IMG/VR virus record: IMGVR_UViG_3300031578_000432
Coordinates: 1 to 20,415 of that record
From: a virus
DNA length: 20,415 nt
Direction: 5' to 3' (one strand)
The notes under the pieces were generated by a model, which saw only the letters and a list, made by a program, of their open reading frames with translations, made no database searches and was not told the DNA's origin. The translations under genes were made by a program, and so were the position numbers. This document shows, piece by piece, positions 1 to 11,368 of this stretch. The first letter of the stretch is position 1. Every line of letters starts with the position of its first letter.

Positions 1-1390
1 AACCGTCAGAAGGACAGCCTGCTCGTCAATGACGGTAAGAGTATCGCAGACCGAGACTTCATAGAAAGTAAACTGCTGTTCTACTGAGTCCGAAAGCGAT
101 ATCGTATCGTACACATTGACCGAGAGCTCGCTCGCTTCCACAAGAGTAACATCGGCAGCGTCGTTCAGACCAAGCGAATCGGAAACGAATATTTCCAGTA
201 CTGGAACTTCGAGGCCGGTAACATCCATAACGCCTACCGAATCGGAGGCCAATACCTCAAGGACCGGCAGTTGTATCGTCGTTTCATCAGTCACGCCAAC
301 AGAATCGAATACGCAGACTTCATAGACGGCGATCTGTGTAGTTGTAACATCCGATACGCCAATCGAATCAAAGACTGATACTTCAAGAGCCGGGATCTGG
401 GCCGTCGTTTCATCAGTGAGGCCAATATCATCGTAAGCAGATATCTCATAGACGGCGATCTGAACATCCGCTTCATCGCTTACTCCAATATTATCGGCAA
501 CCGACAGTTCGTAGAAATTCAACATGCCGGCCGTGGCTTCCGTCACCTGAACATTGTCATAAACATAAATGTTCAATACGGCTGCATCCTGGCGGATCGC
601 CGTGGCGCCGTCCGTGAGCCCTATGATGTCGCCGACAGCAATTTCCAGTAACGGATAGAAAGTATCGACCGCATCGGTCAGACCAATGGTATCGTAGACT
701 GAGACTTCCAGAACGGGCAATTCGACTACGATCTCGTCTGCCAGCCCTATACTGTCAGATACGAAAACTTCTAATACAGAGATGGATATTTCGACGGCAT
801 CCGTGAGGCCAACTAAATCCGATACCGACACTTCCAGGGCTGGAATCTGAACAGCGTCCTCATCGCTAAGTCCTATAGCATCGGCAACGGAAACTTCTAA
901 AACTGCAATTTCAACAGCAACATCATCACTCAACCCTATTCCGTCAGTAACCAAGGCCTCGTACAGAGACAAAGCTGCATCAACTGCCTCCGAAAACCCA
1001 ATACTATCGCTAACAGAAATCTCTAATACCGGTATCTCGTTAGCGACATCATCAGTTAAACCTATCGAATCAAACACGGATACTTCCAGGACCGGTATTT
1101 CAACAGCGGTTTCATCAGCCAAACTGATACTGTCAGTGACCGAAACCTCATATAAATCCAGGGCCAAATCAACCGCATCGGCCAAGCCAATATCGTCTGA
1201 AACGAATATTTCCAGCACCGGGATTGATATATTCACATCATCCGTGAGTGAGATTTCGTCAAAAACCAAAACCTCTATTGTTGGCACAAGCAGAGTTACT
1301 TCATCAGTTAGCCCAATATCATCTGAGACTGAGACTTCAAGAATTGGAATCGAGGCGGAAGCTTCTTCGGAGGCGCCAATATTGTCAAAG
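1..1390 (-). repeat. At least 22 tandem repeats of about 21 residues (about 63 bp) in the fibre gene
   Basis: Read on the minus strand, the motif LEV(S/F)V(S/F)DSIGLTDxVxxxIPV recurs every 20-24 codons, usually 21, and I count 22 copies in the window. The most constant positions are an aromatic or Leu followed by Glu, then Val, Asp, Gly-Leu or Gly-Val, and a second Asp or Glu. Third codon positions differ freely between most copies, so selection seems to act on the protein. The array continues past base 1. The regular hydrophobic/acidic alternation suggests a beta-stranded rod, possibly metal-binding, but that is inference. Confidence 0.88.
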
Positions 1391-3222
1391 ACGTTTATAA
1401 ATAGAGAGCTTCCAGCAACAACCTCAACATTGACAAAATCTGTTACGCCAACAGAGTCAACCCCAGACGCAAAATGTATTCCTATATTTGTATTAACTGT
1501 CCATCCCAGACCTTCTAATGTTGCTTTATCAGTTTCGCCACCTGCTGATGGAGCAGCATTATTACCCGGCAAATCCAGCGTATTGAATGCCCCATCGACG
1601 CCACTATCCACAATATCGGAAAGGATGTTATCGACTTGTGACTCTGTCAAAGAACAGTCATCCATGTCGACTCCGTCTATGCTTGCTGTTAGGTCAGCGA
1701 ATGCACCAGAGGTCGTATCGTAATCAAACGAAGTATTATTTGCCGTGAGAAAATCAAGTAAAGGCGGCCACGTCCACTGTGAAATATCACCAGAAAGAGA
1801 AGTGTTATAGCATTTGAAATCCACTAAACCAGTTGAATGCGTCCATCCAGATATATCTCCTGTAACAGAAGTGTTTTGCAGGTATAAATCGTAGAGAGTA
1901 TTAGGAAATGTCCAACCAGAAATATTGCCAGAAACCGATGTGTCAGCGAGGCTAAGAATTTCCAGAATGGTATTAAATGTCCAACCAGAAATATCGCCAG
2001 AAACGGATGTGTTATGAATGGACAGAGTATCTAACGCAACAGGAAATGTCCAACCAGAAATATCACCAGAAACGGATGTGTTGTAAGCATAAAAGAGTTC
2101 TAAACTACTCGGTAACGTCCAACTTCCAATATTACCAGATACCGATGTGCTTTCTACTCTAAAGGTCTGAACGCTGTTCGGAAGTGACCAACCAGAAATA
2201 TCGCCGGAAACGGATGTGGTTGCAAGATTTATAATGCTTAACCCAGTTGGCATTGTCCAACCGCTGATATCACCTGAAACATTAGTGTTTTGTAAAGAAA
2301 AATAAGTTAAATCATCTGGCAATTCCCATGACGCAACGCTTCCATACACATCATCGTTATATAAATTTATATAAGTTATAGAATCATAATCACTGCAAAC
2401 ATATTCAATTTTGTCGTCAGTGGATACAGATATGCTCCCTGCCACTCCAGATGTTAAACTGCTGTCGTAGGCATCGTTAATCCAAACCTCTACCGTACCG
2501 GAGGGAAAATTAAATTGTGGAGTTATGGTCGTGTCGGATGAAGCATAGACGGTCAATACGACGGCTGCATCCTGGCGGATCGCCGTACAGCCGTCTGTGA
2601 GTCCTATGATGTCGCCGACAGCAATTTCCAGTAACGGATAGAAAGTATCGACCGCATCGGACAGGCCAATTGTATCGGAAACTGAGACTTCAAGAGGCGG
2701 CGGCGTCTCATACGTCACCTCCATCGTCACGTAGTCGATATAAACGTTGGAGTTATTGCCTGTCGGTATGACAGCAAGAGCCACGCCGAAATCTGCATCC
2801 TTCACCCAGGCTGCCGTTAAAGAATTGCCCCAGAGATTGTCCGCTGCCCCTATCGTATAAATCGTCTCGCCAGTCGCTATAGCAAGTGGTATTGGCGTTG
2901 AAGCAAGGTTTGTCCCTACCTTGTTGCCGTCAACATCCAGAAGCTGCGCTAACGCAATTCCAGATGCACCAATGGTATAGTAGCCCTCAACCCTGACTGT
3001 GATACCAAGAATTGTCGCGCCAGCCGGAACAGCACTAAAGTCGAAACCTTTAGCCTTCAACACATAAGATTCAACACCGCTATCAAAGGCGGCATCGTCA
3101 ATGTAAGCATAGGCAGCGTCATTAGCCTTGATATTGTCCGGATCGATCCATGTCAAATGATCGTAGGGAGCCTCCGACGTTGTCGATGCTACTGTCGGAT
3201 ATTTTGCCCCTGTTGTTGCCAT
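1..3222 (-). CDS. Giant repetitive tail fibre / adhesin-like protein (3' end beyond left edge)
   Basis: The frame is open for all 1074 codons from the ATG at 3222 to base 1, so the C-terminus lies outside the window. AAAGAG sits 5 nt before the ATG, and the upstream gene stops 9 nt earlier. Residues 1-170 form a beta-rich domain ending in YIDYVTMEVTYE, a type common at the N-terminus of environmental phage structural proteins. After a short linker come about eight 23-residue leucine-rich-like repeats (about 298-495). Next is a segment with LTESQVDNIL and LDLPGNNAAPSAG, a pattern I recognise from other phage LRR proteins. From about residue 611 to the edge are tandem repeats of about 21 residues of the form LEVSVSDSIGLTDDV. 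Composition is acidic and rich in Ser, Thr, Val and Ile, with very few Lys. Host-receptor binding or a long spacer is inferred from architecture and position. No chaperone or depolymerase domain is visible. Confidence 0.85.
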   Translation of the reverse strand, partial: MATTGAKYPTVASTTSEAPYDHLTWIDPDNIKANDAAYAYIDDAAFDSGVESYVLKAKGFDFSAVPAGATILGITVRVEGYYTIGASGIALAQLLDVDGNKVGTNLASTPIPLAIATGETIYTIGAADNLWGNSLTAAWVKDADFGVALAVIPTGNNSNVYIDYVTMEVTYETPPPLEVSVSDTIGLSDAVDTFYPLLEIAVGDIIGLTDGCTAIRQDAAVVLTVYASSDTTITPQFNFPSGTVEVWINDAYDSSLTSGVAGSISVSTDDKIEYVCSDYDSITYINLYNDDVYGSVASWELPDDLTYFSLQNTNVSGDISGWTMPTGLSIINLATTSVSGDISGWSLPNSVQTFRVESTSVSGNIGSWTLPSSLELFYAYNTSVSGDISGWTFPVALDTLSIHNTSVSGDISGWTFNTILEILSLADTSVSGNISGWTFPNTLYDLYLQNTSVTGDISGWTHSTGLVDFKCYNTSLSGDISQWTWPPLLDFLTANNTSFDYDTTSGAFADLTASIDGVDMDDCSLTESQVDNILSDIVDSGVDGAFNTLDLPGNNAAPSAGGETDKATLEGLGWTVNTNIGIHFASGVDSVGVTDFVNVEVVAGSSLFINVFDNIGASEEASASIPILEVSVSDDIGLTDEVTLLVPTIEVLVFDEISLTDDVNISIPVLEIFVSDDIGLADAVDLALDLYEVSVTDSISLADETAVEIPVLEVSVFDSIGLTDDVANEIPVLEISVSDSIGFSEAVDAALSLYEALVTDGIGLSDDVAVEIAVLEVSVADAIGLSDEDAVQIPALEVSVSDLVGLTDAVEISISVLEVFVSDSIGLADEIVVELPVLEVSVYDTIGLTDAVDTFYPLLEIAVGDIIGLTDGATAIRQDAAVLNIYVYDNVQVTEATAGMLNFYELSVADNIGVSDEADVQIAVYEISAYDDIGLTDETTAQIPALEVSVFDSIGVSDVTTTQIAVYEVCVFDSVGVTDETTIQLPVLEVLASDSVGVMDVTGLEVPVLEIFVSDSLGLNDAADVTLVEASELSVNVYDTISLSDSVEQQFTFYEVSVCDTLTVIDEQAVLLTV
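578..709. repeat. Direct repeat copy B in the fibre gene
   Basis: This segment matches 2561-2692 with about eleven mismatches. It includes 26 identical bases at its start (578-603) and 58 identical bases at 620-677. It encodes part of a fibre repeat with the residues FYPLLEIAVGDIIGLTDG followed by TAIRQDAAV. Other repeat units in the same array are far less alike at DNA level, so this copy was probably generated or homogenised recently. Confidence 0.9.
1740..2330 (-). repeat. About eight 23-residue leucine-rich-like repeats (69 bp) in the fibre gene
   Basis: The translated unit is VSGDISGWTFPxxLxxLxLxNTS, repeated with a 69-bp period and well conserved at DNA level (ccaaccagaaatatc recurs on the plus strand). 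The spacing of Leu, Asn-Thr-Ser and Gly-Asp-Ile resembles extracellular-type leucine-rich repeats, which form curved solenoids used for binding. The last copy, near 1740-1800, is diverged (LSGDISQWTWPPLL) and acts as a cap before the non-repetitive part. The block looks more AT-rich than the flanking fibre sequence. Confidence 0.8.
2561..2692. repeat. Direct repeat copy A in the fibre gene
   Basis: This is the partner of 578-709 at an offset of 1983 bp, which is exactly 661 codons. It lies between the N-terminal domain and the leucine-rich block, so the two copies bracket the leucine-rich block and about twelve of the 21-residue repeats. It is a lone 21-residue-type unit placed away from the main array. 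Confidence 0.9.
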
Positions 3223-3231
3223 GAAATCTCT

Positions 3232-4005
3232 TTACGGGTATTGTTTCCCTGTCGAAAGGTCAATGTGCTTACAGAATATGTTCGTATCGCACAAGAACGG
3301 ATACTTCTTCCGTCCAATCTTAGGCCAGCCAGACCGTTTCAAAACATTATCTTTAATAACTCGAGCGCACCAGTTAAGGTCGGAAGTGCCGCTGCCGGAA
3401 GCGAAAGAGTTCGTATCGCGGTCGTAATAGCATTTGGCCGGAGTCTCGAAGACCTTCCTTGTCTTGCGGCCGCCGACGGTTTCGTACTCCTCGCTCTCGT
3501 TCCACATCAGCTTGATAAGCGATGAATGGATCAGGAGAAATCCCGTGGGAACGCCGTCGGCCCAGACCTTGTCGCCTATTTTGAAATCTTCATAAGCGCC
3601 CGTGCCCAGGCCTCGATAGAGAACCGGCTCGGTGTAATTGCTCTTGAGGTAATACAGGCCGCTCACAACGGGAATGGTCGCTTTCTTCATATACTGATTC
3701 AGTTGCAGGAAGGCGTCGGGCGGCGCAATAACATCATCCTCCCAAAGAAGCATCCACTCGTAGCCCTGGTTGACTACATCCTCGCAGCCGAAGTTCTGGG
3801 CGTCGGCAACCAGGAAGTGCAAGGGCACGGTACAACCTAATCCCAAAGAACGGCCCCCCGCGGACCAGTTGGGGGGCGTAGGCTGCCCGTGCCGAGACAT
3901 TGACCATTCCATTCGCACAATGCCCAGGGAGGCCGTGACGATCAGTAATCTATTCCTCGGGTTCCCGTTCGCTCCGCTCTGTATCAGCTTGGCGCCGCCT
4001 ATCAT
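3232..4005 (-). CDS. GT-A-fold glycosyltransferase-like protein
   Basis: With the ATG at 4005 the protein has 257 residues. It opens with a beta-strand RLLIVTASLG (19-28). Then come WMLLWEDDVIAPPDAF (84-99), where the acidic WEDD (88-91) is placed like a DxD metal/nucleotide-sugar site, VSGLYYLK (114-121), a substrate-side loop ADGVPTGFLLI (149-159), and a C-terminal CKHIDLSTGKQYP. This order is typical of phage and capsular GT-A transferases, but I cannot name the sugar or acceptor. AGGTGACG precedes the ATG. An earlier in-frame ATG at 4065 would add a Pro/Ser-rich leader that looks like out-of-frame sequence from the overlapping small gene. It lies just upstream of the fibre gene, consistent with a role in modifying virion or host surface glycans. 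Confidence 0.72.
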   Translation of the reverse strand: MIGGAKLIQSGANGNPRNRLLIVTASLGIVRMEWSMSRHGQPTPPNWSAGGRSLGLGCTVPLHFLVADAQNFGCEDVVNQGYEWMLLWEDDVIAPPDAFLQLNQYMKKATIPVVSGLYYLKSNYTEPVLYRGLGTGAYEDFKIGDKVWADGVPTGFLLIHSSLIKLMWNESEEYETVGGRKTRKVFETPAKCYYDRDTNSFASGSGTSDLNWCARVIKDNVLKRSGWPKIGRKKYPFLCDTNIFCKHIDLSTGKQYP

Positions 4006-4096
4006 CGTCACCTGGCTTGACAGGTGCGGGCTTGACGGTTTCGGTAATTTCGACATTGACTGCATCGGTTATTTTCACTCCGTCACTTTGAGTCAT
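3950..4096 (-). CDS. Small protein of 48 residues, unknown function
   Basis: AAGGAG sits 7 nt before the ATG at 4096, one of the best ribosome sites in the window. The gene overlaps the end of the upstream methyltransferase by 14 nt. The first 29 residues look like an ordinary acidic, Val/Thr-rich peptide (MTQSDGVKITDAVNVEITET, then Pro/Lys-rich). The tail is strongly charged (DDDRRRQ to SEREPEE) and overlaps the next glycosyltransferase by 56 nt in another frame. It may be a real small protein or the front end of a frameshift product with the glycosyltransferase. Confidence 0.5.
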   Translation of the reverse strand: MTQSDGVKITDAVNVEITETVKPAPVKPGDDDRRRQADTERSEREPEE

Positions 4097-4676
4097 TTTT
4101 AACTCCTTTTTTCTTCGGTGACATTTCAACCGCATCGTCCGGCCTCTGCTTATCGAACTTCGGTTGCATTACAGGTTTTCCTTTTTTGTCTTTGCGCGGC
4201 TCCATGATGATCTCAATGCAACCGTTCAGAGAAAACACGCTCCTGATGATCTTCCACGGCAGGGGCTTCTTGTAACTGCAACTGTGCCACAATTGAAAAT
4301 CGGGATCGAAGAACTGGAACGTCGCTTCGTTGGGGCACATATAATGCGCCGGGTGGGCTGCCTCCAGGTAACTTCCGGCATAAGGACAGCTCAAGAGCAA
4401 CTGGCCATCGTGCCGGCATATACGCCACAGTTCATCCATGACCTGAAAGCGGTATTTCGGCTCTATATGCTCCCAGATATGCGACATCAAGACCTGAAAA
4501 CAGCTTCTGTCGGGCACGGGCCAGGGGAACCGCTGAATGTCCCAGACGATGTCCACGCCGGGCTGCCTGTACTGATCGAGACCGACAAATCCCTTCTGTT
4601 TGAATTGCCCGCAGCCTATATCGAGCTTAATGCCGCTGGCTTTTCGGAATAACGCTTCGTTCACTCTTTTTGCCAT
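4083..4676 (-). CDS. Class I SAM-dependent methyltransferase
   Basis: The 197-residue protein has the SAM-binding glycine motif LDIGCGQ at residues 18-24 and an acidic strand-2 end GLDQ at 32-35. SHIWEHIEP at 65-73 matches the post-II region of Methyltransf_11-type enzymes, and LLLSCPY (93-99) matches the following strand. The last 40 residues are Lys/Pro-rich and probably disordered. The ATG at 4676 was chosen because the SAM motif then starts 18 residues in, with AAGGGA about 12 nt upstream. Earlier starts would overlap the previous gene and add a low-complexity leader. The substrate is unknown. Placement between a structural gene and a glycosyltransferase suggests a sugar or glycoprotein, as inference. 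Confidence 0.8.
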   Translation of the reverse strand: MAKRVNEALFRKASGIKLDIGCGQFKQKGFVGLDQYRQPGVDIVWDIQRFPWPVPDRSCFQVLMSHIWEHIEPKYRFQVMDELWRICRHDGQLLLSCPYAGSYLEAAHPAHYMCPNEATFQFFDPDFQLWHSCSYKKPLPWKIIRSVFSLNGCIEIIMEPRKDKKGKPVMQPKFDKQRPDDAVEMSPKKKGVKNDSK

Positions 4677-4701
4677 CAGCCAAAATGTCCCTTCCGCTAT
4701 T

Positions 4702-5175
4702 TTAGGTCGTCGAATAACGCCATTCGTATGAGCAGTTAACGCTCTGCGTGGTAGCCAATGCCGAAGAAGCGAAAGCTTTGCCTGCCAGCAGCGAGCCGGA
4801 CGAATTGGCAAACACCCCGATATTGGCAATCGTTACGGCGCCCAGTGCCCCGTCAAAGGCTACGGACATGCGGGCGGTCAAACTGTCAATAACGGAACTC
4901 TGGGCAAAAGCCGAGTAGTAATCGGAATGGCTGTCAGCAAGTTCCACATCACTGCCCACGGGGTTGCCTGTTCCACTACCAAGCCTGAGACCGGCGGCCT
5001 GGACGGATGCGGCTCCTATCGGGGCGGCGACGATGCAACTGTTCAAGCCGTAGTTGGTAATCTGGTTTTCAAACCAGCCGGAATCGCCAACTATCTTTTT
5101 CGTTTTCTTGTCCACGATTTGCAGACGTGCGAAACCCTTGATGCCAATGCAACTTGTTAATTTTTTAATTCTCAT
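4702..5175 (-). CDS. Probable phage structural protein (157 residues)
   Basis: A good GGGAG lies 7 nt before the ATG. After a charged start (residues 1-35, with KLTSCIGIKGFARLQIVDKK) the protein is small-residue rich. It has the feature GLRLGSGTGNPVGSDVELAD, common in phage tail-associated beta-structured proteins, followed by alternating Ala/Ser/Val strands. The segment RLQIVDKKTKKIVGDSGWFENQITNYGL resembles the start of many small phage virion proteins in which a beta-hairpin leads to a loop. There is no signal peptide or catalytic motif. A virion role is inferred from composition and from its place in the capsid-to-fibre region. Confidence 0.6.
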   Translation of the reverse strand: MRIKKLTSCIGIKGFARLQIVDKKTKKIVGDSGWFENQITNYGLNSCIVAAPIGAASVQAAGLRLGSGTGNPVGSDVELADSHSDYYSAFAQSSVIDSLTARMSVAFDGALGAVTIANIGVFANSSGSLLAGKAFASSALATTQSVNCSYEWRYSTT

Positions 5176-5246
5176 TTCAATACTCCCTTTTATGTAATTG
5201 TTAAGGCAGGTAAATACGCTTGCTTTTATTGTTTCCTTCCCGCCCT

Positions 5247-5537
5247 TTACTTTTTCTTCGGTTTGGCCTTCGGTTCTTGTTTATCCGGCTCATCCGGCAC
5301 TACCCCCGGCTCTTCTCGATGCACGGCAAGCAGATGCTCCTTGAACAACTCGGGAGTCTGCCTGACCGCGCCGCACAATTTGCAGGTCAATCCCGTTTCC
5401 TTGACGGGCGGTACCGGGGCTTTCGCCGACACATCAACCTCTTCACCGGAACTCGGATCGTAATAAACACCATCCTGTTTCCAGAGGGTTCCGCTCTTTG
5501 AGCCGGCGATATCGTAAGGTCTACTTTTGTCTAACAT
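5247..5537 (-). CDS. Small C2H2 zinc-finger-like protein
   Basis: The 96-residue protein contains CKLCG at 52-56 and HLLAVH at 68-73, a Cys2-His2 spacing like a classical zinc finger, which is uncommon in phage structural regions. The C-terminus (PDKQEPKAKPKKK) is Lys/Pro-rich. The N-terminus has a short segment LWKQDGVYYDPSSGEEV. AGGAG is 8 nt before the ATG, and the start lies inside the last 17 nt of the upstream transferase gene, so translation is probably coupled. It could bind nucleic acid or be a small structural or accessory protein. I see no basis for choosing. Confidence 0.7.
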   Translation of the reverse strand: MLDKSRPYDIAGSKSGTLWKQDGVYYDPSSGEEVDVSAKAPVPPVKETGLTCKLCGAVRQTPELFKEHLLAVHREEPGVVPDEPDKQEPKAKPKKK

Positions 5538-7137
5538 TTTTCCATCTCCTGTAATATTTTTCGATTGCTTCGACTATTCTTTCAGGCTTGAGGGCTTCCA
5601 TGCACTTTGCACCATCGTGCCTTACGTTTAATGGGATAATATTGCCGTCCACAGTCTTAATCTGGGCCTTTGATACGAGGCATTCGCCGTCGTAAATCAG
5701 CCTGTGACACGGCTGGCAGTTAACCGGCGCGGACAATGCCGTGCAGTTCTTCCAGTATTTTGTCAGGTTCTCCGGCGATGAATGACTGAGAAAGACGATC
5801 TTGGGAGTATCGTAGCAGCTTGCAGCGTTGAGCACCCCCGTCTCCGGACCTACAACAAGGTCACAATATTTCGTCATCAGCATGGACTGGCGAATGGTCC
5901 AGGCGCCGGATTTGTTGAGAGTGTTCTGATGTTTCCACGACTCCAGGATCTTGCACATCTCATCGCCGACCGTAACGATAACAATGTCCGGATGCTTCTG
6001 ATGGATTGTGCCGGCCACGATGTGGGTCCAGGGATAGCATTTATGCAAACTCGAACCCGACAGCGACCAGAGAATCATAAACTTGTCTTCATTCTGCTGA
6101 CGGATAATCCGGGCAAGCGATTCTTCCATATCGGTAAAATGCAGTTCCGGTAATTGGCCCTTCATATCGGGATAACCGGCGGCATCCATAGTCCTGTCCA
6201 TATAATTGATATTGCAAAGCTCGTTACGCTTTTTGTGAGAAAGATGATATTCGGCAGTGCCCTGTCGAACCAGCAGCGTTTTTTCCACGCTTTCGCAGAG
6301 ATTGACGACACGGTCGAATCCTTTGCCGATTTCCTCCCAGTACGGACCCAGCTCGGCGTTTGGAACAACGTCACGCTCCTGCAGCATGAACTCGTCTATC
6401 CAGGGACATTCCCTTAATACTTCGGCCGAGTAAGGAGTGCAATTATAAGTGATCCTAAAGCCATCGGACTTGAGTTGTCTCAAAACCGCCGTTGCCCAGA
6501 CGGCATCGCCTAAAGCACCATAGCGAATAACCAGGCAAGTTTTTCCAGCCTTTTTACGGGGGAACGCCACGAAACCGTTATTGGATTTCAATGGCTCGGT
6601 CATGCAAGCCGGAAGAATGCGCCTGAGCATACCGACACGCTTTCTTACAATGATTTGGAAGCTGTATTCGTTGCTCGAATTATGTTCCGTGGCTGAAATC
6701 AGTTTGAAGTTGCCGAACTTCTTGAGAATAGCCCAAATATCGCGCCACTCAAAATCTTGTTGATGATTTGGATTCGCCCCGGCCGTTCCGACATTGGGAT
6801 AAAACTTTCTATCGGGAAGATACAGGATTAGGTATCCACCCGACTTAATCACGCGACACCACTCCCGTAGGATCGGTTCAGTACATTTGAAATCCTCGAG
6901 GCAGTGCGATGAAAAGACGTAATCGAAAACGCCATCTGAAAATATACCGAGTGCATTATCTGCCGACAGGTCCAACTTGATATCGGCCGCCGAGCCAGCA
7001 ATGTCTATCCCCGTAGCTTCATCGCAGACCTTCTCATTCCCGCAACCAATGTCCAACCCTGTTCCCCGCAGATAACTTGCTACCCTGTATCTGCACTTCT
7101 GGGCCTCGTAACCCTGCGATAATTGCGAATTCCACAT
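5521..7137 (-). CDS. Two-domain enzyme: N-terminal methyltransferase, C-terminal GT9 (heptosyltransferase-like) glycosyltransferase
   Basis: The 538 residues hold two modules. Residues 1-170 form a class I methyltransferase with GLDIGCGNE (27-35), GIDI (43-46) and DYVFSSHCLED (72-82). Residues about 198-538 match the glycosyltransferase family 9 fold. They start with CLVIRYGALGDAVWATAVLR (201-220), which contains the GxxGD signature, and reach GPETGVLNAAS (430-440), the usual nucleotide-sugar-side motif, and then a Cys-rich CQPCH to GEC (474-485). GT9 enzymes typically transfer heptose or related sugars to lipopolysaccharide or protein. Here the donor and acceptor are unknown. The gene starts 3 nt after the upstream GT2 stop and overlaps the downstream zinc-finger gene by 17 nt, so it sits in one operon. 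Confidence 0.85.
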   Translation of the reverse strand: MWNSQLSQGYEAQKCRYRVASYLRGTGLDIGCGNEKVCDEATGIDIAGSAADIKLDLSADNALGIFSDGVFDYVFSSHCLEDFKCTEPILREWCRVIKSGGYLILYLPDRKFYPNVGTAGANPNHQQDFEWRDIWAILKKFGNFKLISATEHNSSNEYSFQIIVRKRVGMLRRILPACMTEPLKSNNGFVAFPRKKAGKTCLVIRYGALGDAVWATAVLRQLKSDGFRITYNCTPYSAEVLRECPWIDEFMLQERDVVPNAELGPYWEEIGKGFDRVVNLCESVEKTLLVRQGTAEYHLSHKKRNELCNINYMDRTMDAAGYPDMKGQLPELHFTDMEESLARIIRQQNEDKFMILWSLSGSSLHKCYPWTHIVAGTIHQKHPDIVIVTVGDEMCKILESWKHQNTLNKSGAWTIRQSMLMTKYCDLVVGPETGVLNAASCYDTPKIVFLSHSSPENLTKYWKNCTALSAPVNCQPCHRLIYDGECLVSKAQIKTVDGNIIPLNVRHDGAKCMEALKPERIVEAIEKYYRRWKNVRQK

Positions 7138-7140
7138 CTG

Positions 7141-7929
7141 TTATCCTTTCGTCTTTACTCTTAATCCTGCAATTTGACTGCATTGACTGCGTATGTGTTC
7201 GATATGAGGTTTCAGATCTTCGGCGCTCGAGTCTACTTTCGGATGGCTGAGTGTCTGAAACAGCTCCCCGGTAATCCATTTGCGGGCGTAATAATCCATA
7301 TCGAGAATCTTTCGTGCGCATATTTCATTCGAACCGTGCACTTTAGATACCCCGCCTTCGTGAACTCCCCGGGCCCTGACAATATTCCAGATTTGAAAAC
7401 CACGCGATCTTGCCGTAAAGCAATAATCGCTGTCACTGCCGACAAGCTGCATATTCTCATCGAGCAGGCCTATCTCTCTCAGCATGGCCGTTCGCATAAT
7501 CCAGCAGCAGGCACTGGCCCATCGCACCTGTGCGTTATCGCGGAAAACAGCCAAGGACCCAATTGCGGCAGTACCCAACGGGTAAGTACCCACCCCGCCG
7601 GCACATATAACTTCATCGGGATTGACCTGAGATAATTGAAGAGGCATTCCGATTCCGCAGTCCGGCATACCGTCCATAAACTTCACCATCTCCTCGACGG
7701 CCCCTGCCTCCAGGTACATATCCTGATTGAGAATGATAATATACGGTTCCTGCGGATCGCTTTTTAAGAATGCCCGCAACCCGACGTTGACGGCCCGCGT
7801 GAAATAGATATTCTCATCGGTATTATCGTGGATATAAACTTTGACATGAACCGTCTGTTTGCGTAAATGCTCAAGGCATTTGTCGAGCTGCTCTCTGTTT
7901 TTGAAGAATGGGATTACCACTGGAATCAT
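7141..7929 (-). CDS. GT2-family glycosyltransferase
   Basis: The 262-residue protein begins with the GT-A strand MIPVVIPFFKN. It has a DNTDEN segment (35-40) in the nucleotide-binding region and LNQDMYLEAGAVEEMV (67-82), the variant DxD region. GSDSDYCFTARSRG (164-177) corresponds to the acceptor-side acidic (ED-like) motif of GT2 rhamnosyl/glycosyl transferases, and VHEGG follows at 189-193. The ATG at 7929 overlaps the upstream stop as ATGA. A GTG at 7938 is possible, but its GGGAG would be too close. It is probably translated with the flanking transferases and may extend the same glycan. Substrates are not readable. Confidence 0.87.
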   Translation of the reverse strand: MIPVVIPFFKNREQLDKCLEHLRKQTVHVKVYIHDNTDENIYFTRAVNVGLRAFLKSDPQEPYIIILNQDMYLEAGAVEEMVKFMDGMPDCGIGMPLQLSQVNPDEVICAGGVGTYPLGTAAIGSLAVFRDNAQVRWASACCWIMRTAMLREIGLLDENMQLVGSDSDYCFTARSRGFQIWNIVRARGVHEGGVSKVHGSNEICARKILDMDYYARKWITGELFQTLSHPKVDSSAEDLKPHIEHIRSQCSQIAGLRVKTKG

Positions 7930-9260
7930 CTTCTGCACGGCTCCCGCAAGTTCAGTAGTTCTCGCCTGTTTTCTTCCAAAAACTCGTAAGTTGGAATTAT
8001 CTCTTTAGTAAACAACTCCTGAGAGGTTTTTTCTATAACCCCAACCCCGTAATCGACATCGAAAACATACATGCCCAGGTCCGGCCTCGATGCCCTCAGC
8101 TCCGCCCAGGCCTTCCAGACATCGCCGCACCAAAGACCCTTCCTGACGTTGACAGGGCATTGAAGCCCTTCCGACGTCGGGTTGCAGTCGTGGACTACGA
8201 TAAATCCGTTTTCCGTTATGAGATTAAGCGCGTTATTTATATCTCTCAAAGCCTGTTCGGCCGTATGCAGGCCATCGACAAAAATCAGGTCGAACTTTTC
8301 ACCCCTGTAACTCTCGAAGAAGTCGTCAGAAGTCATTCTGTATTTGCAATCCTCATTCGGGTCGACACCCGTCTTGTAATCGCAATTTATCTTATTGAAA
8401 TTCGTTGCGGCATTGTCTACGCCGATTTCCAGGTACCGGGACAGGTGATGTTTGCTGATTAGGTCATTGATAATATCCGTCCTCAACACGCAATAATCAC
8501 CTAAGTGCGCGGAATATTTCCCAGGATTATCTCTGATACATTTCGGCAGTTCGGACAAACCTGTGAAACTGAACTCATAACCGGGCCGGCCGAACAGGTC
8601 GATACCCTCGCTTCTGCATTTCTCGATATTCTCTATGTTCGTATATTCCGGCCTGTCGCATTCCGTATGAGAGAAAGCGCAGAGTTTTTCCGCTATCCTT
8701 TCCGCACTCATCAAGTAGGCAAAATGCCACCCGGCATTAGGTAATATTAGCCGATCTTCTTTGCCCTGCCGTAATTGCCGGGCCGATTCGTAGTCTTTGT
8801 AACGGCAGAAAGCAGGCCATATCCAATCCCTCTTTTGGCGGCAGTTAAGCCAGTAATAATAGTTGCGCATACTCAGCCTGCCGGGTAAATTGGTCATTTT
8901 TATAATCGGCATGACATCGGCACTGACGATCTCATCGGCGTCGGTAAGGATAATTGTATCGTCGGGAAGGCATACGGTTTTCAAATAATCGTCGATAGAT
9001 TCCCTCTGTCCCCATTCATTGGCCCAGGCATCCGTAGCGTGATATGCGGTATGTTGAGAGATAATATGAACGATTCTGTCTTTGTGCTTCCTGTATCGCT
9101 CGCTGTTTTCGCAGAAATACAGGGGCTTTGGCTTGCCGGTATAAGTCCTGTCGGATTCGACCAGAACGAATTTATCGACAAGGCCGGACAGCTCTTCCAG
9201 GCGAATATCCAGAAGGTCGAACTCGTCATAAAACATAAAAGTATTGTAAATTAAGCCCAT
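7926..9260 (-). CDS. Two-domain enzyme: N-terminal GT17-like glycosyltransferase, C-terminal methyltransferase
   Basis: Starting at the ATG at 9260 (AGGA 7 nt upstream) gives 444 residues. Residues 1-250 resemble glycosyltransferase family 17: FYDEFDLLDIRLEEL near the start, FVLVESDRTYTGKPKPL (31-47), ILTDADE (104-110) as the metal/donor site, and GWHFAY (177-182). Residues about 255-444 form a Methyltransf_24-like domain with RYLEIGVD (275-282), FVDGLHT (327-333) and VVHDCNP (355-361), ending in WAELRASRPDL and DYGVGVI. GT17 enzymes add N-acetylglucosamine in eukaryotes; bacterial and phage members are not assigned. The fusion suggests addition and methylation of a sugar by one protein. It is the first gene of the glycan block. 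Confidence 0.85.
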   Translation of the reverse strand: MGLIYNTFMFYDEFDLLDIRLEELSGLVDKFVLVESDRTYTGKPKPLYFCENSERYRKHKDRIVHIISQHTAYHATDAWANEWGQRESIDDYLKTVCLPDDTIILTDADEIVSADVMPIIKMTNLPGRLSMRNYYYWLNCRQKRDWIWPAFCRYKDYESARQLRQGKEDRLILPNAGWHFAYLMSAERIAEKLCAFSHTECDRPEYTNIENIEKCRSEGIDLFGRPGYEFSFTGLSELPKCIRDNPGKYSAHLGDYCVLRTDIINDLISKHHLSRYLEIGVDNAATNFNKINCDYKTGVDPNEDCKYRMTSDDFFESYRGEKFDLIFVDGLHTAEQALRDINNALNLITENGFIVVHDCNPTSEGLQCPVNVRKGLWCGDVWKAWAELRASRPDLGMYVFDVDYGVGVIEKTSQELFTKEIIPTYEFLEENRRELLNLREPCRR

Positions 9261-9283
9261 GTTTATTCCTATAAAACATCCGT

Positions 9284-9310
9284 GCGGGAGAGACAACGCA
9301 TCCCTCCCGC
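9284..9310 (-). terminator. Terminator-like hairpin between the decoration gene and the glycan block
   Basis: On the minus strand, GCGGGAGGGA (9310-9301) pairs with TCTCTCCCGC (9293-9284) with one G-U pair and a 7-nt loop. The T-rich stretch GTTTTAT starts only about 6 nt after the stem, so this is weaker than a standard intrinsic terminator. It may act as a partial terminator or an RNA processing/stability signal that lowers expression of the transferases relative to the virion proteins. Confidence 0.5.
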
Positions 9311-9338
9311 CGAATGCCAAGACGAAAGGACTATTCTG

Positions 9339-9773
9339 TTACGCGAACAATCTCTGATACGTCAGTCGCAGATTCAACGGACCGACAATACACACTCCGG
9401 CATTGACCGTTTGTGTACCGGTTACATCGACCTGGAGTTCTGTATTGGCTGCTATGTCGGCACATGCGGCCGCCGTCATAGTTCCATCAACGTCAGTCAG
9501 GGCCGTATTCGTACCGATAGCGATATCGCCGAGCTGAGTAGTGCCGTTCATCAGTAGAAGGTGTGAACTCGAGACGTTCCCAGCCGTCAAAATCTGGGCC
9601 TTCATCGCCAGCAGTTTGCAACGGGCGAACAGCTCGAATTTGGAGGCATCTGTAGCCTTGGGAATCAGTCCCGCCGCATCCGACGCCGTTACCGTTGAAG
9701 TACCGCTAATATTGGGAATTTGCATTTCAGCCGCTGCGTGATACAGCGGATCTGTGTAAACTTCGCCAGACAT
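9339..9773 (-). CDS. Probable capsid decoration / minor structural protein
   Basis: The ATG at 9773 follows AGGAG by 8 nt and gives 144 residues. The N-terminus MSGEVYTDPLYHAAAEMQ is followed by Thr/Ala-rich beta sequence. The C-terminal half has TQLGDIAIGTNTAL, then DIAANTELQVDVTGTQTVNAG, and ends LNLRLTYQRLFA. This pattern of small strands is common in proteins encoded right after phage major capsid genes, which usually decorate the head surface. An upstream in-frame ATG at 9836 is less likely because it lacks a ribosome site and passes through the hairpin and promoter region. Function is inferred from position and composition. Confidence 0.7.
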   Translation of the reverse strand: MSGEVYTDPLYHAAAEMQIPNISGTSTVTASDAAGLIPKATDASKFELFARCKLLAMKAQILTAGNVSSSHLLLMNGTTQLGDIAIGTNTALTDVDGTMTAAACADIAANTELQVDVTGTQTVNAGVCIVGPLNLRLTYQRLFA

Positions 9774-9894: not shown

Positions 9895-10389
9895 ATGTCT
9901 GAGACAATTCAAACAAAACGATGCACAAGATGCAAGGAAGTTAAATCCCTTACGGAATTTTACCGAGACAAGATCAAACTTGATGGCCATAGCAGCCAGT
10001 GTAAAATTTGCAATATCAATCGAATCAAGGTATCCCGCCAAACGGAACGAGGTAGGATTATGTCCTGTAAAGTCTCGCTTCATTACCGGCAAAAACACCC
10101 CGAAAGACATAAAACCTCCCAGAAACACTATCGCCATACTGAAAAAGGCAGAACTTTCGGTCGAGTCTCCAACCTTCTCATAAGACTCTTCCATCCGGAA
10201 AAATGGAAGGCAAGAAGAGCCGTCCAACATGCCGTTCAAGCTGGCAAAATAGTTCCTGTTCATACTCTCAACTGCCAGAATTGCCAGCAAAAGGCACAGG
10301 AATACCATCATACTAACGGCTATGAGCCGGTGTTTTGGTTTATTGTCATTCCTCTTTGTAAACAATGTCACCGCCTTGTTCATAAGTAG
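9895..10389 (+). CDS. HNH homing-endonuclease-like protein
   Basis: This is the only gene on the plus strand. AAGGAG lies 6 nt before the ATG. The 164-residue protein has an N-terminal zinc module with CTRC (10-13) and CKIC (36-39). Its C-terminal HNH-type site has CQNC (127-130), HHTNGY (138-143) and PLCKQCHRLVH (153-163). Free-standing HNH genes of this type cut DNA near their insertion site and spread by homing. It ends 4 nt from the capsid stop codon, tail to tail. Basic residues dominate the middle. It could alternatively be a degenerate member that only binds DNA, but the key His, Asn and Cys residues are all present. Confidence 0.85.
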   Translation: MSETIQTKRCTRCKEVKSLTEFYRDKIKLDGHSSQCKICNINRIKVSRQTERGRIMSCKVSLHYRQKHPERHKTSQKHYRHTEKGRTFGRVSNLLIRLFHPEKWKARRAVQHAVQAGKIVPVHTLNCQNCQQKAQEYHHTNGYEPVFWFIVIPLCKQCHRLVHK

Positions 10390-10393
10390 TTGC

Positions 10394-11368
10394 CTATTCA
10401 GCACTTGTGCCATGAATAATATGAGGGGTCCACCCCTTGGTCGTATCCACACTATCCCCGGTCTTGCTGACCGTGTCGCACCATATACTCTTGAAGGTCG
10501 TCAGGGCCCGCCAAGCGATAGACTTGTCCCGCCCGTGGTCCTTTACCTCATAAGTAATGAGAGGCGCCATGACCGGTATCTCCATCACCGCATCGTCGCC
10601 GAAAACCACAAACTCCCCGTAAGAAGTATTAAAAGAGTTGGAAAGGATGTGGTTCTCTTTAACGAACCGGCAGTTGTATATCTTGCCCGCCTCGTTGGTC
10701 AGTCGCTGCTCCGGCTTGGTGTACTTGTAAACATCTATCCATGCCGTATCGTCTGTGAGACCGCGGAGCGCCTTTACCGATGCGACACATACGTAGTTGC
10801 CCTCGTTATCGAAGGGCGGCACGTTCCAGATCGTCAACTGATCGCAGATGTTCTTAACGTGGTAGCTGTTAAGATTCGAAGCAGCGGTGTCCGTCGTTGT
10901 TCCGGCTGTACCCAGGATGAATGAATCGGTGGTGGTACAGGTGTACTTTGCGAGCGTGTCCTTGAAGGCCGCTGCACATGCCCGGTCGAGCGTTTGGGCC
11001 TGGTGGTTCCTCAGCCGCTTGTGGATCATGTTGTCGATATTGAACTCCGACAGCTTTTCGATCTTGCCGGTATACGGAATAGCAAGACCGTACTCGGCAA
11101 TAGTCGCCGTGCCCTGCCCGAGCACGAAGGTGGCCCTCGGCATGGTAGTGGTCTCGACAAGGGTTCCGTGAGTGCCGGGAATATCGCCGATCTTATCGAA
11201 GAGGACGATTCCGCCCTTAGACCCTGCGTTCAGCGTGTCTTCCTTGATGTTACAGAACTGGGTGAATCTCATTAACGGCTGGGATGCGTCCCAGATTTTA
11301 TGTGACAATCGCGGGTTGGTCAGATAACCGCCGAGCGTGGTTGTCATCCATAATTGTTGTGATGCCAT
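10394..11368 (-). CDS. Major capsid protein, N4 gp56-like family
   Basis: The 324-residue protein opens with MASQQLWMTTTLGGYLTN, passes LMRFTQFCNI (32-41), and then GGIVLFDKIGDIPGTHGTL with ETTTMP, the signature I associate with the N4 gp56-type HK97-fold capsid proteins. AEYGLAIPYTGKIEKLSEF and a long helix-like region with AQTLDRACAAAF follow. The length fits the family. AAGGAG is 8 nt before the ATG, and the gene follows the scaffold gene by 22 nt. The protein forms the head shell. The HNH gene on the other strand abuts its 3' end. Confidence 0.9.
   Translation of the reverse strand: MASQQLWMTTTLGGYLTNPRLSHKIWDASQPLMRFTQFCNIKEDTLNAGSKGGIVLFDKIGDIPGTHGTLVETTTMPRATFVLGQGTATIAEYGLAIPYTGKIEKLSEFNIDNMIHKRLRNHQAQTLDRACAAAFKDTLAKYTCTTTDSFILGTAGTTTDTAASNLNSYHVKNICDQLTIWNVPPFDNEGNYVCVASVKALRGLTDDTAWIDVYKYTKPEQRLTNEAGKIYNCRFVKENHILSNSFNTSYGEFVVFGDDAVMEIPVMAPLITYEVKDHGRDKSIAWRALTTFKSIWCDTVSKTGDSVDTTKGWTPHIIHGTSAE

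Follow-up and report, generated by a model that had tools for sequence, protein, structure and literature searches.

The window analysed here is a stretch of 20,415 nucleotides from a single virus record (IMGVR_UViG_3300031578_000432), in which the structural genes all lie on the minus strand and follow one another as terminase, portal (phrog_332), scaffold-like protein, capsid (phrog_1357), small protein in the position of a decoration protein, enzyme block, and large fibre-like protein (Table 1). The enzyme block (3232-9260) consists of five enzyme genes interspersed with two small ones, and its domains amount to four glycosyltransferases (GT17, GT2, GT9, and GT-A) and three class I methyltransferases. 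All five enzyme genes announced in an earlier note on this DNA were found on the minus strand, and the block shares one operon with the capsid and fibre genes. The window's proteins recur at 99-100% identity in the IMG/VR contig 3300031673_000096 (47,198 bases), which continues into further structural genes, and the window belongs to an uncultured tailed virus of bacteria. In this longer contig the fibre-like protein, whose gene is cut by the window end, has 1156 aa; it carries a leucine-rich-type repeat block (SGDISGWT...), then an array of EVSVSDSIGLTDAV-kind repeats.

Table 1. Features of the enzyme block and of its structural neighbours in the window.
Feature	Coordinates	Strand	Evidence or remark
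Large repeat fibre-like protein	1..3222	-	Downstream of module B; gene cut by window end; second candidate acceptor
GT-A glycosyltransferase	3232..4065	-	AlphaFold2 model and Foldseek
Class I methyltransferase MT2	4083..4676	-	Weak Methyltransf_23/11: PF13489 0.0048, PF08241 0.018
Small tail-fibre-like protein, proposed acceptor	4702..5175	-	phrog_4176 tail fiber protein 1.8e-7
96-aa protein between modules	5247..5537	-	C2H2-like CxxC...H motif (CKLCG...HLLAVH)
Methyltransf_11-GT9 fusion (MT-GT9)	5521..7137	-	Pfam Methyltransf_11 2.6e-8; GT9 PF01075 7.6e-4, below cut-off
GT2 glycosyltransferase	7141..7938	-	PF00535 7.3e-5, borderline; over cut-off in scan with neighbours
GT17 fused to Methyltransf_24 (GT17-MT)	7926..9260	-	Pfam PF04724 8.7e-39; PF13578 5.9e-11
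Small decoration-position protein after capsid, candidate acceptor	9339..9773	-	Named by position; inner-ATG start inferred
Major capsid protein, module A anchor gene	10394..11368	-	phrog_1357 major head protein E 2.2e-16; Phage_capsid 0.007

Two start sites were reassigned. GT17-MT most likely begins at the ATG at 9260, which follows an AGGA site (called ORF, 7926-9320) and agrees with the end coordinate proposed previously. The most likely start of MT2 is the ATG at 4676 (called ORF, 4083-4829), so that the overlap it seems to have with the tail-fibre gene would be an artefact of the ORF caller. As for the small structural genes described as interleaved with the enzymes, one was recovered as tail-fibre-like, and the other encodes the 96-aa protein, which has relatives in 13 to 18 loci. 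In every gene tested pN was far below pS, with synonymous sites near saturation in most pairs (GT-A against locus L126, pN 0.075 and pS 0.695; MT-GT9 against locus L013, pN 0.182 and pS 0.734), and the enzyme genes are thus under purifying selection. Since gene order is also conserved across contigs of related phages, a comparison that the earlier note had proposed, chance can be excluded as the source of the block.

The glycosyltransferase and methyltransferase folds expected of these genes were upheld by profile and structure searches. The GT17 profile scored 134 bits against a cut-off of 26. The Methyltransf_24 domain is missing from the L013 and L016 homologues, and the nearest relatives are GT17 proteins without that methyltransferase; the fusion thus appears to be local to the window's phage. 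Relatives of this domain at 57-61% identity were seen among apparent tail genes of other phages (L003:3017-4810, where it sits inside a longer protein, and L004:4170-5339), and PHROGs labels relatives of the domain "DNA methyltransferase", perhaps a misnaming. The GT2 protein is 68-71% identical in L013 and L016. For MT-GT9, the family profile of the C-terminal half matched the GT9 structure 3tov (1.8e-6), and a Foldseek search with the AlphaFold2 model (pLDDT 86.8) retrieved heptosyltransferase II of E. coli (1psw, 5.6e-12), 3tov (9.8e-12), and WaaC (9.5e-9), with TibC also among the best glycosyltransferase matches and class I methyltransferases besides. Profile and model together make the GT9 assignment of this half firm, including the predicted GT-B fold of heptosyltransferases. 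This fold and family profile are shared with known GT9 heptosyltransferases such as TibC, which we take to be a protein heptosyltransferase, but the window enzyme differs from them in being fused to a methyltransferase, phage-specific, and encoded beside a capsid gene. An origin of MT-GT9 from bacterial genomes was rejected, as the matches from a genome scan were all weak and fell mostly in the methyltransferase half.

The GT-A protein had no Pfam family match. Its AlphaFold2 model (pLDDT 71.6, with a confident core and poor ends) gave 22 matches in the PDB at E-values up to 0.001, led by viral GT-A enzymes (STIV A197, 2c0n, 3.4e-7) and collagen galactosyltransferases. The DxD-like metal motif is kept, E109-x-D111 and the C-terminal H267 being invariant in 15 relatives, and the model predicts a GT-A fold. 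PDB sequence searches with the GT-A, tail-fibre-like, and decoration-position proteins returned no convincing relatives; the tail-fibre-like protein takes its name solely from its PHROGs label. MT2 is 89.7% identical in L126. According to a 19-residue hydropathy scan, the cassette proteins are all free of membrane segments, the highest value being 1.64 in the tail-fibre-like protein and at most 1.39 in the enzymes.

We then analyzed the distribution of these genes among viral contigs. Each locus list was limited to the best 80 relatives, from incomplete contigs of which some recur between samples. Relatives of MT-GT9 occur in at least 154 viral contigs, and the best 80 of these loci were selected by MT-GT9 alone. 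The window's capsid family lay upstream in 41 of the 42 loci of this set with more than 6 kb of upstream sequence, and in 51 of 52 clusters at 90% identity, at a median distance of 1.2 kb (69 loci). In the one exception, contig 3300009528_000017, the capsid gene lies about 13 kb upstream, and the gap holds GT4, a GFO/IDH/MocA oxidoreductase, an epimerase, methyltransferases, a DegT aminotransferase, GT2-GT1, and LicD, genes which, judged from their families, make up a near-complete sugar-nucleotide pathway. The gap is hypervariable, in other loci with GT4/GT1, PIG-L, hexapeptide transferase, FkbM, TylF, or sulfotransferase-like genes, and in some loci MT-GT9 itself is fused to extra glycosyltransferase and methyltransferase domains. 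The sulfotransferase-like proteins (L109:9288-9962 and similar, a cluster of 13 proteins; PF00685 1.8e-4) make sulfated virion glycans possible.

When loci were chosen by the capsid alone, GT9 was found downstream in 36 of the 54 with enough downstream sequence. It was not found in the available sequence of the other 18, one of which is the contig with the 13-kb gap, and module A, that is GT17-MT, GT2, and MT-GT9, is therefore common but dispensable. The same 18 loci led us to reject a need of the cassette for head assembly, which is also contradicted by Bas95 and Vibrio phage 431E45.1, two isolated phages with distant capsid homologues and no annotated glycosyltransferase at this place, in a comparison made by annotation where most genes are "hypothetical". 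Distances among capsid and MT-GT9 proteins were correlated (Mantel r 0.71, n = 43), a value reached in none of 2000 permutations. By these comparisons, module A appears linked to the capsid lineage, with MT-GT9 as its conserved core. The small decoration-position protein is kept beside the capsid in 36 loci and had no family match in Pfam, PHROGs, or the PDB sequence search; because its relatives are missing from some MT-GT9 loci, it would not be a general acceptor.

Module B, formed by the tail-fibre-like protein, MT2, and GT-A in this order, has a different distribution. Relatives of GT-A were found in at least 185 viral contigs and those of the tail-fibre-like protein in at least 143; the two lists share many contigs and are not fully independent tests. 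Selection by either protein recovered the same triplet, in 70 of the 74 GT-A loci whose upstream sequence was long enough and in 68 of 75 tail-fibre loci, both counted among the best relatives (54/57 and 57/62, respectively, by 90% clusters). Of the other four GT-A loci, three had the tail-fibre-like gene downstream and one had MT2 only, and the seven remaining tail-fibre loci were near contig ends. The window's capsid family was present in only 8 of 82 GT-A loci in the available sequence; in L126, for example, module B stands beside an unrelated head (phrog_771, phrog_766). The window shares 83-90% identity with L126 in module B but 61-67% with L013, although the L013 capsid is 82% identical, which indicates that the whole triplet was exchanged together between phages. 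Divergence is likewise correlated among the triplet proteins (Mantel r 0.55-0.67, n = 57). By gene order and identity, module B is near-obligate, fibre-linked, and carried mostly by phages with other heads. In L126, we also observed that the downstream fibre is related to the window's fibre-like protein (2.6e-53), and that the second gene after the capsid (L126:3741-4382) matches a PHROGs "alpha-2;3-sialyltransferase" (1.4e-24).

The earlier note had read the block as one glycan cassette of five enzymes within a structural operon, forming a single pathway for a methylated oligosaccharide. The enzymes and the operon stand, but the single cassette does not: module A follows the capsid lineage, whereas module B is mostly found with other capsids and moved independently, and a single five-enzyme pathway is accordingly rejected. 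The two modules lie side by side in the window, L013, L038, and L074. We consider it rather likely that two virion-modification modules meet here in one late operon, module A acting on the head and module B on the fibre. The simplest target of an enzyme pair that is almost never apart from one tail-fibre-like protein is this protein or its fibre, and the simplest target of MT-GT9, fixed behind the capsid with swappable sugar genes, is the head. These acceptors are presumed from gene order, and gene neighbourhood may reflect late expression rather than substrate.

From the folds, gene order, conservation, and unit exchange observed, we infer a glycan on virions, with its sugar, linkage, and acceptor. 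Module A would build and methylate a short glycan on the head, the variable genes between the capsid and MT-GT9 serving sugar supply and elongation, and the conserved fusion performing an invariant step, either attachment or formation of a methylated linker sugar. Its acceptor would likely be either the capsid protein or the small decoration-position protein. MT2 and GT-A, in turn, may methylate and glycosylate either the small tail-fibre-like protein, whose gene directly precedes theirs, or the large fibre downstream. These results suggest that phages with the recurring modules use methylated sugars to coat portions of their virions.

Alternatively, the cassette could modify the host surface late in infection, for instance to keep phages from adsorbing again to debris or to cells already infected, and its place in the operon would then reflect late timing only. 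GT9 enzymes typically put heptose on lipopolysaccharide, the best structural matches of the GT9 half are lipopolysaccharide heptosyltransferases, and one relative (3300009528_000017) has LicD and sugar-nucleotide genes, which also occur in surface-polysaccharide loci. However, the cassette proteins are without membrane segments, no flippase or polymerase was seen among the genes tested, and such a function would not lead one to expect the fixed place behind the capsid gene or a single tail-fibre-like protein as the near-obligate partner of module B in unrelated phages. We thus hold this explanation to be unlikely, and position, hydropathy, and pairing favour virion decoration over it, in agreement with the earlier note. 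It is still less probable that module B alone modifies the virion, at the fibre, while module A acts elsewhere, such as on the host surface, and lies on the capsid side for timing. The acceptor argument is indeed much stronger for module B than for module A, given the capsid loci without GT9, but capsid and MT-GT9 diverge together and keep the same place in nearly all clusters. Finally, glycosylation of a modified base in phage DNA is very improbable: DNA-acting phage glycosyltransferases are known (Pyle 2024, as cited in PMC12619734) and the PHROGs name of the Methyltransf_24 relatives would fit, but the 47-kb contig, possibly incomplete, has no thymidylate-synthase family gene (PF00303) and no Tet/JBP match (PF12851, run without a positive control), the nearest structures are protein or lipid glycosyltransferases, and sugar-nucleotide genes by the capsid would not be expected.

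Modification of the particle itself can be compared with known systems. To our knowledge, phage particle glycosylation has been proven in few phages. The nearest proven precedent, as cited in PMC12619734 and PMC11256854, is the glycosylation of capsid and tail tube in mycobacteriophages, where the glycosyltransferases are encoded by the phage, as in the window. Head and tail proteins are the proposed targets of virion glycosylation in Che8 and Rita (Freeman 2023, as cited in the same two papers). By the description given there, the glycosyltransferases of the related phage Maravista lie near the 3' end of the genome, not behind a capsid or tail-fibre gene, and GT17, MT-GT9, and the triplet are not described there for the mycobacteriophage system. 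Gp87, an unassigned protein of the cluster-F1-like phage Ardmore, was matched weakly by the GT-A model in the structure search (8.6e-4). Bacterial flagellin and O-antigen glycan islands likewise place a conserved structural gene beside hypervariable sugar-nucleotide, glycosyltransferase, and methyltransferase genes; the window system differs in being viral, in its fixed MT-GT9 gene, and in having no flippase or polymerase that we could see. Serotype-converting (Gtr) systems have a membrane-embedded transferase or flippase, whereas hydropathy indicated none in the cassette.

A tblastn search with MT-GT9, GT-A, and the tail-fibre-like protein against 50,697 public phage records gave no match, an absence that holds at tblastn sensitivity only, as profiles found relatives of GT-A (5.4e-11) and MT2 (2.9e-37) among the proteins of Podoviridae sp. 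ctKR88 (GenBank MW202524, metagenomic). Like the window, ctKR88 has glycosyltransferases and methyltransferases directly after the major capsid gene, but its capsid belongs to the SU10_MCP family and its proteins matched neither the GT9 nor the tail-fibre-like profile. Paenibacillus phage PG1 has only an MT2-like gene, beside lysis genes. Our literature search found no paper that discusses ctKR88 and none on glycosyltransferase genes downstream of a podovirus major capsid gene. In this system the place of the enzymes, on the capsid side or behind the tail-fibre-like gene, is fixed while the sugar genes vary, in sets of at least 154 and at least 185 viral contigs whose fixed-place enzymes tblastn did not find in public phage records.

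We tentatively propose, with slightly more doubt than confidence, that large groups of uncultured tailed phages possess two dedicated virion-modification loci, a capsid-side locus, swapped in the manner of O-antigen or flagellin-glycan islands around a fixed MT-GT9, and a near-obligate tail-fibre/methyltransferase/GT-A triplet. If so, the diversity of virion glycans would be under selection in these phages. The capsid-side locus would illustrate how virion glycans could diversify in nature, and the near-constant company of the tail-fibre-like protein with its methyltransferase and GT-A gives a directly testable candidate acceptor.

Additional ORFs were observed around the capsid gene. In the window, a 164-aa ORF with CxxC and HNH-like motifs lies between the capsid and the decoration-position gene (9895-10389), on the plus strand and thus opposite to all other genes. 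It is missing from L013, had no good Pfam family match, and probably encodes a free-standing homing endonuclease. In L017 (9089-10693), and also in L099 and L108, the capsid gene is interrupted by another ORF that leaves it in two pieces (in L017, the LAGLIDADG-like ORF at L017:9466-10005), an arrangement suggestive of self-splicing introns in this gene.
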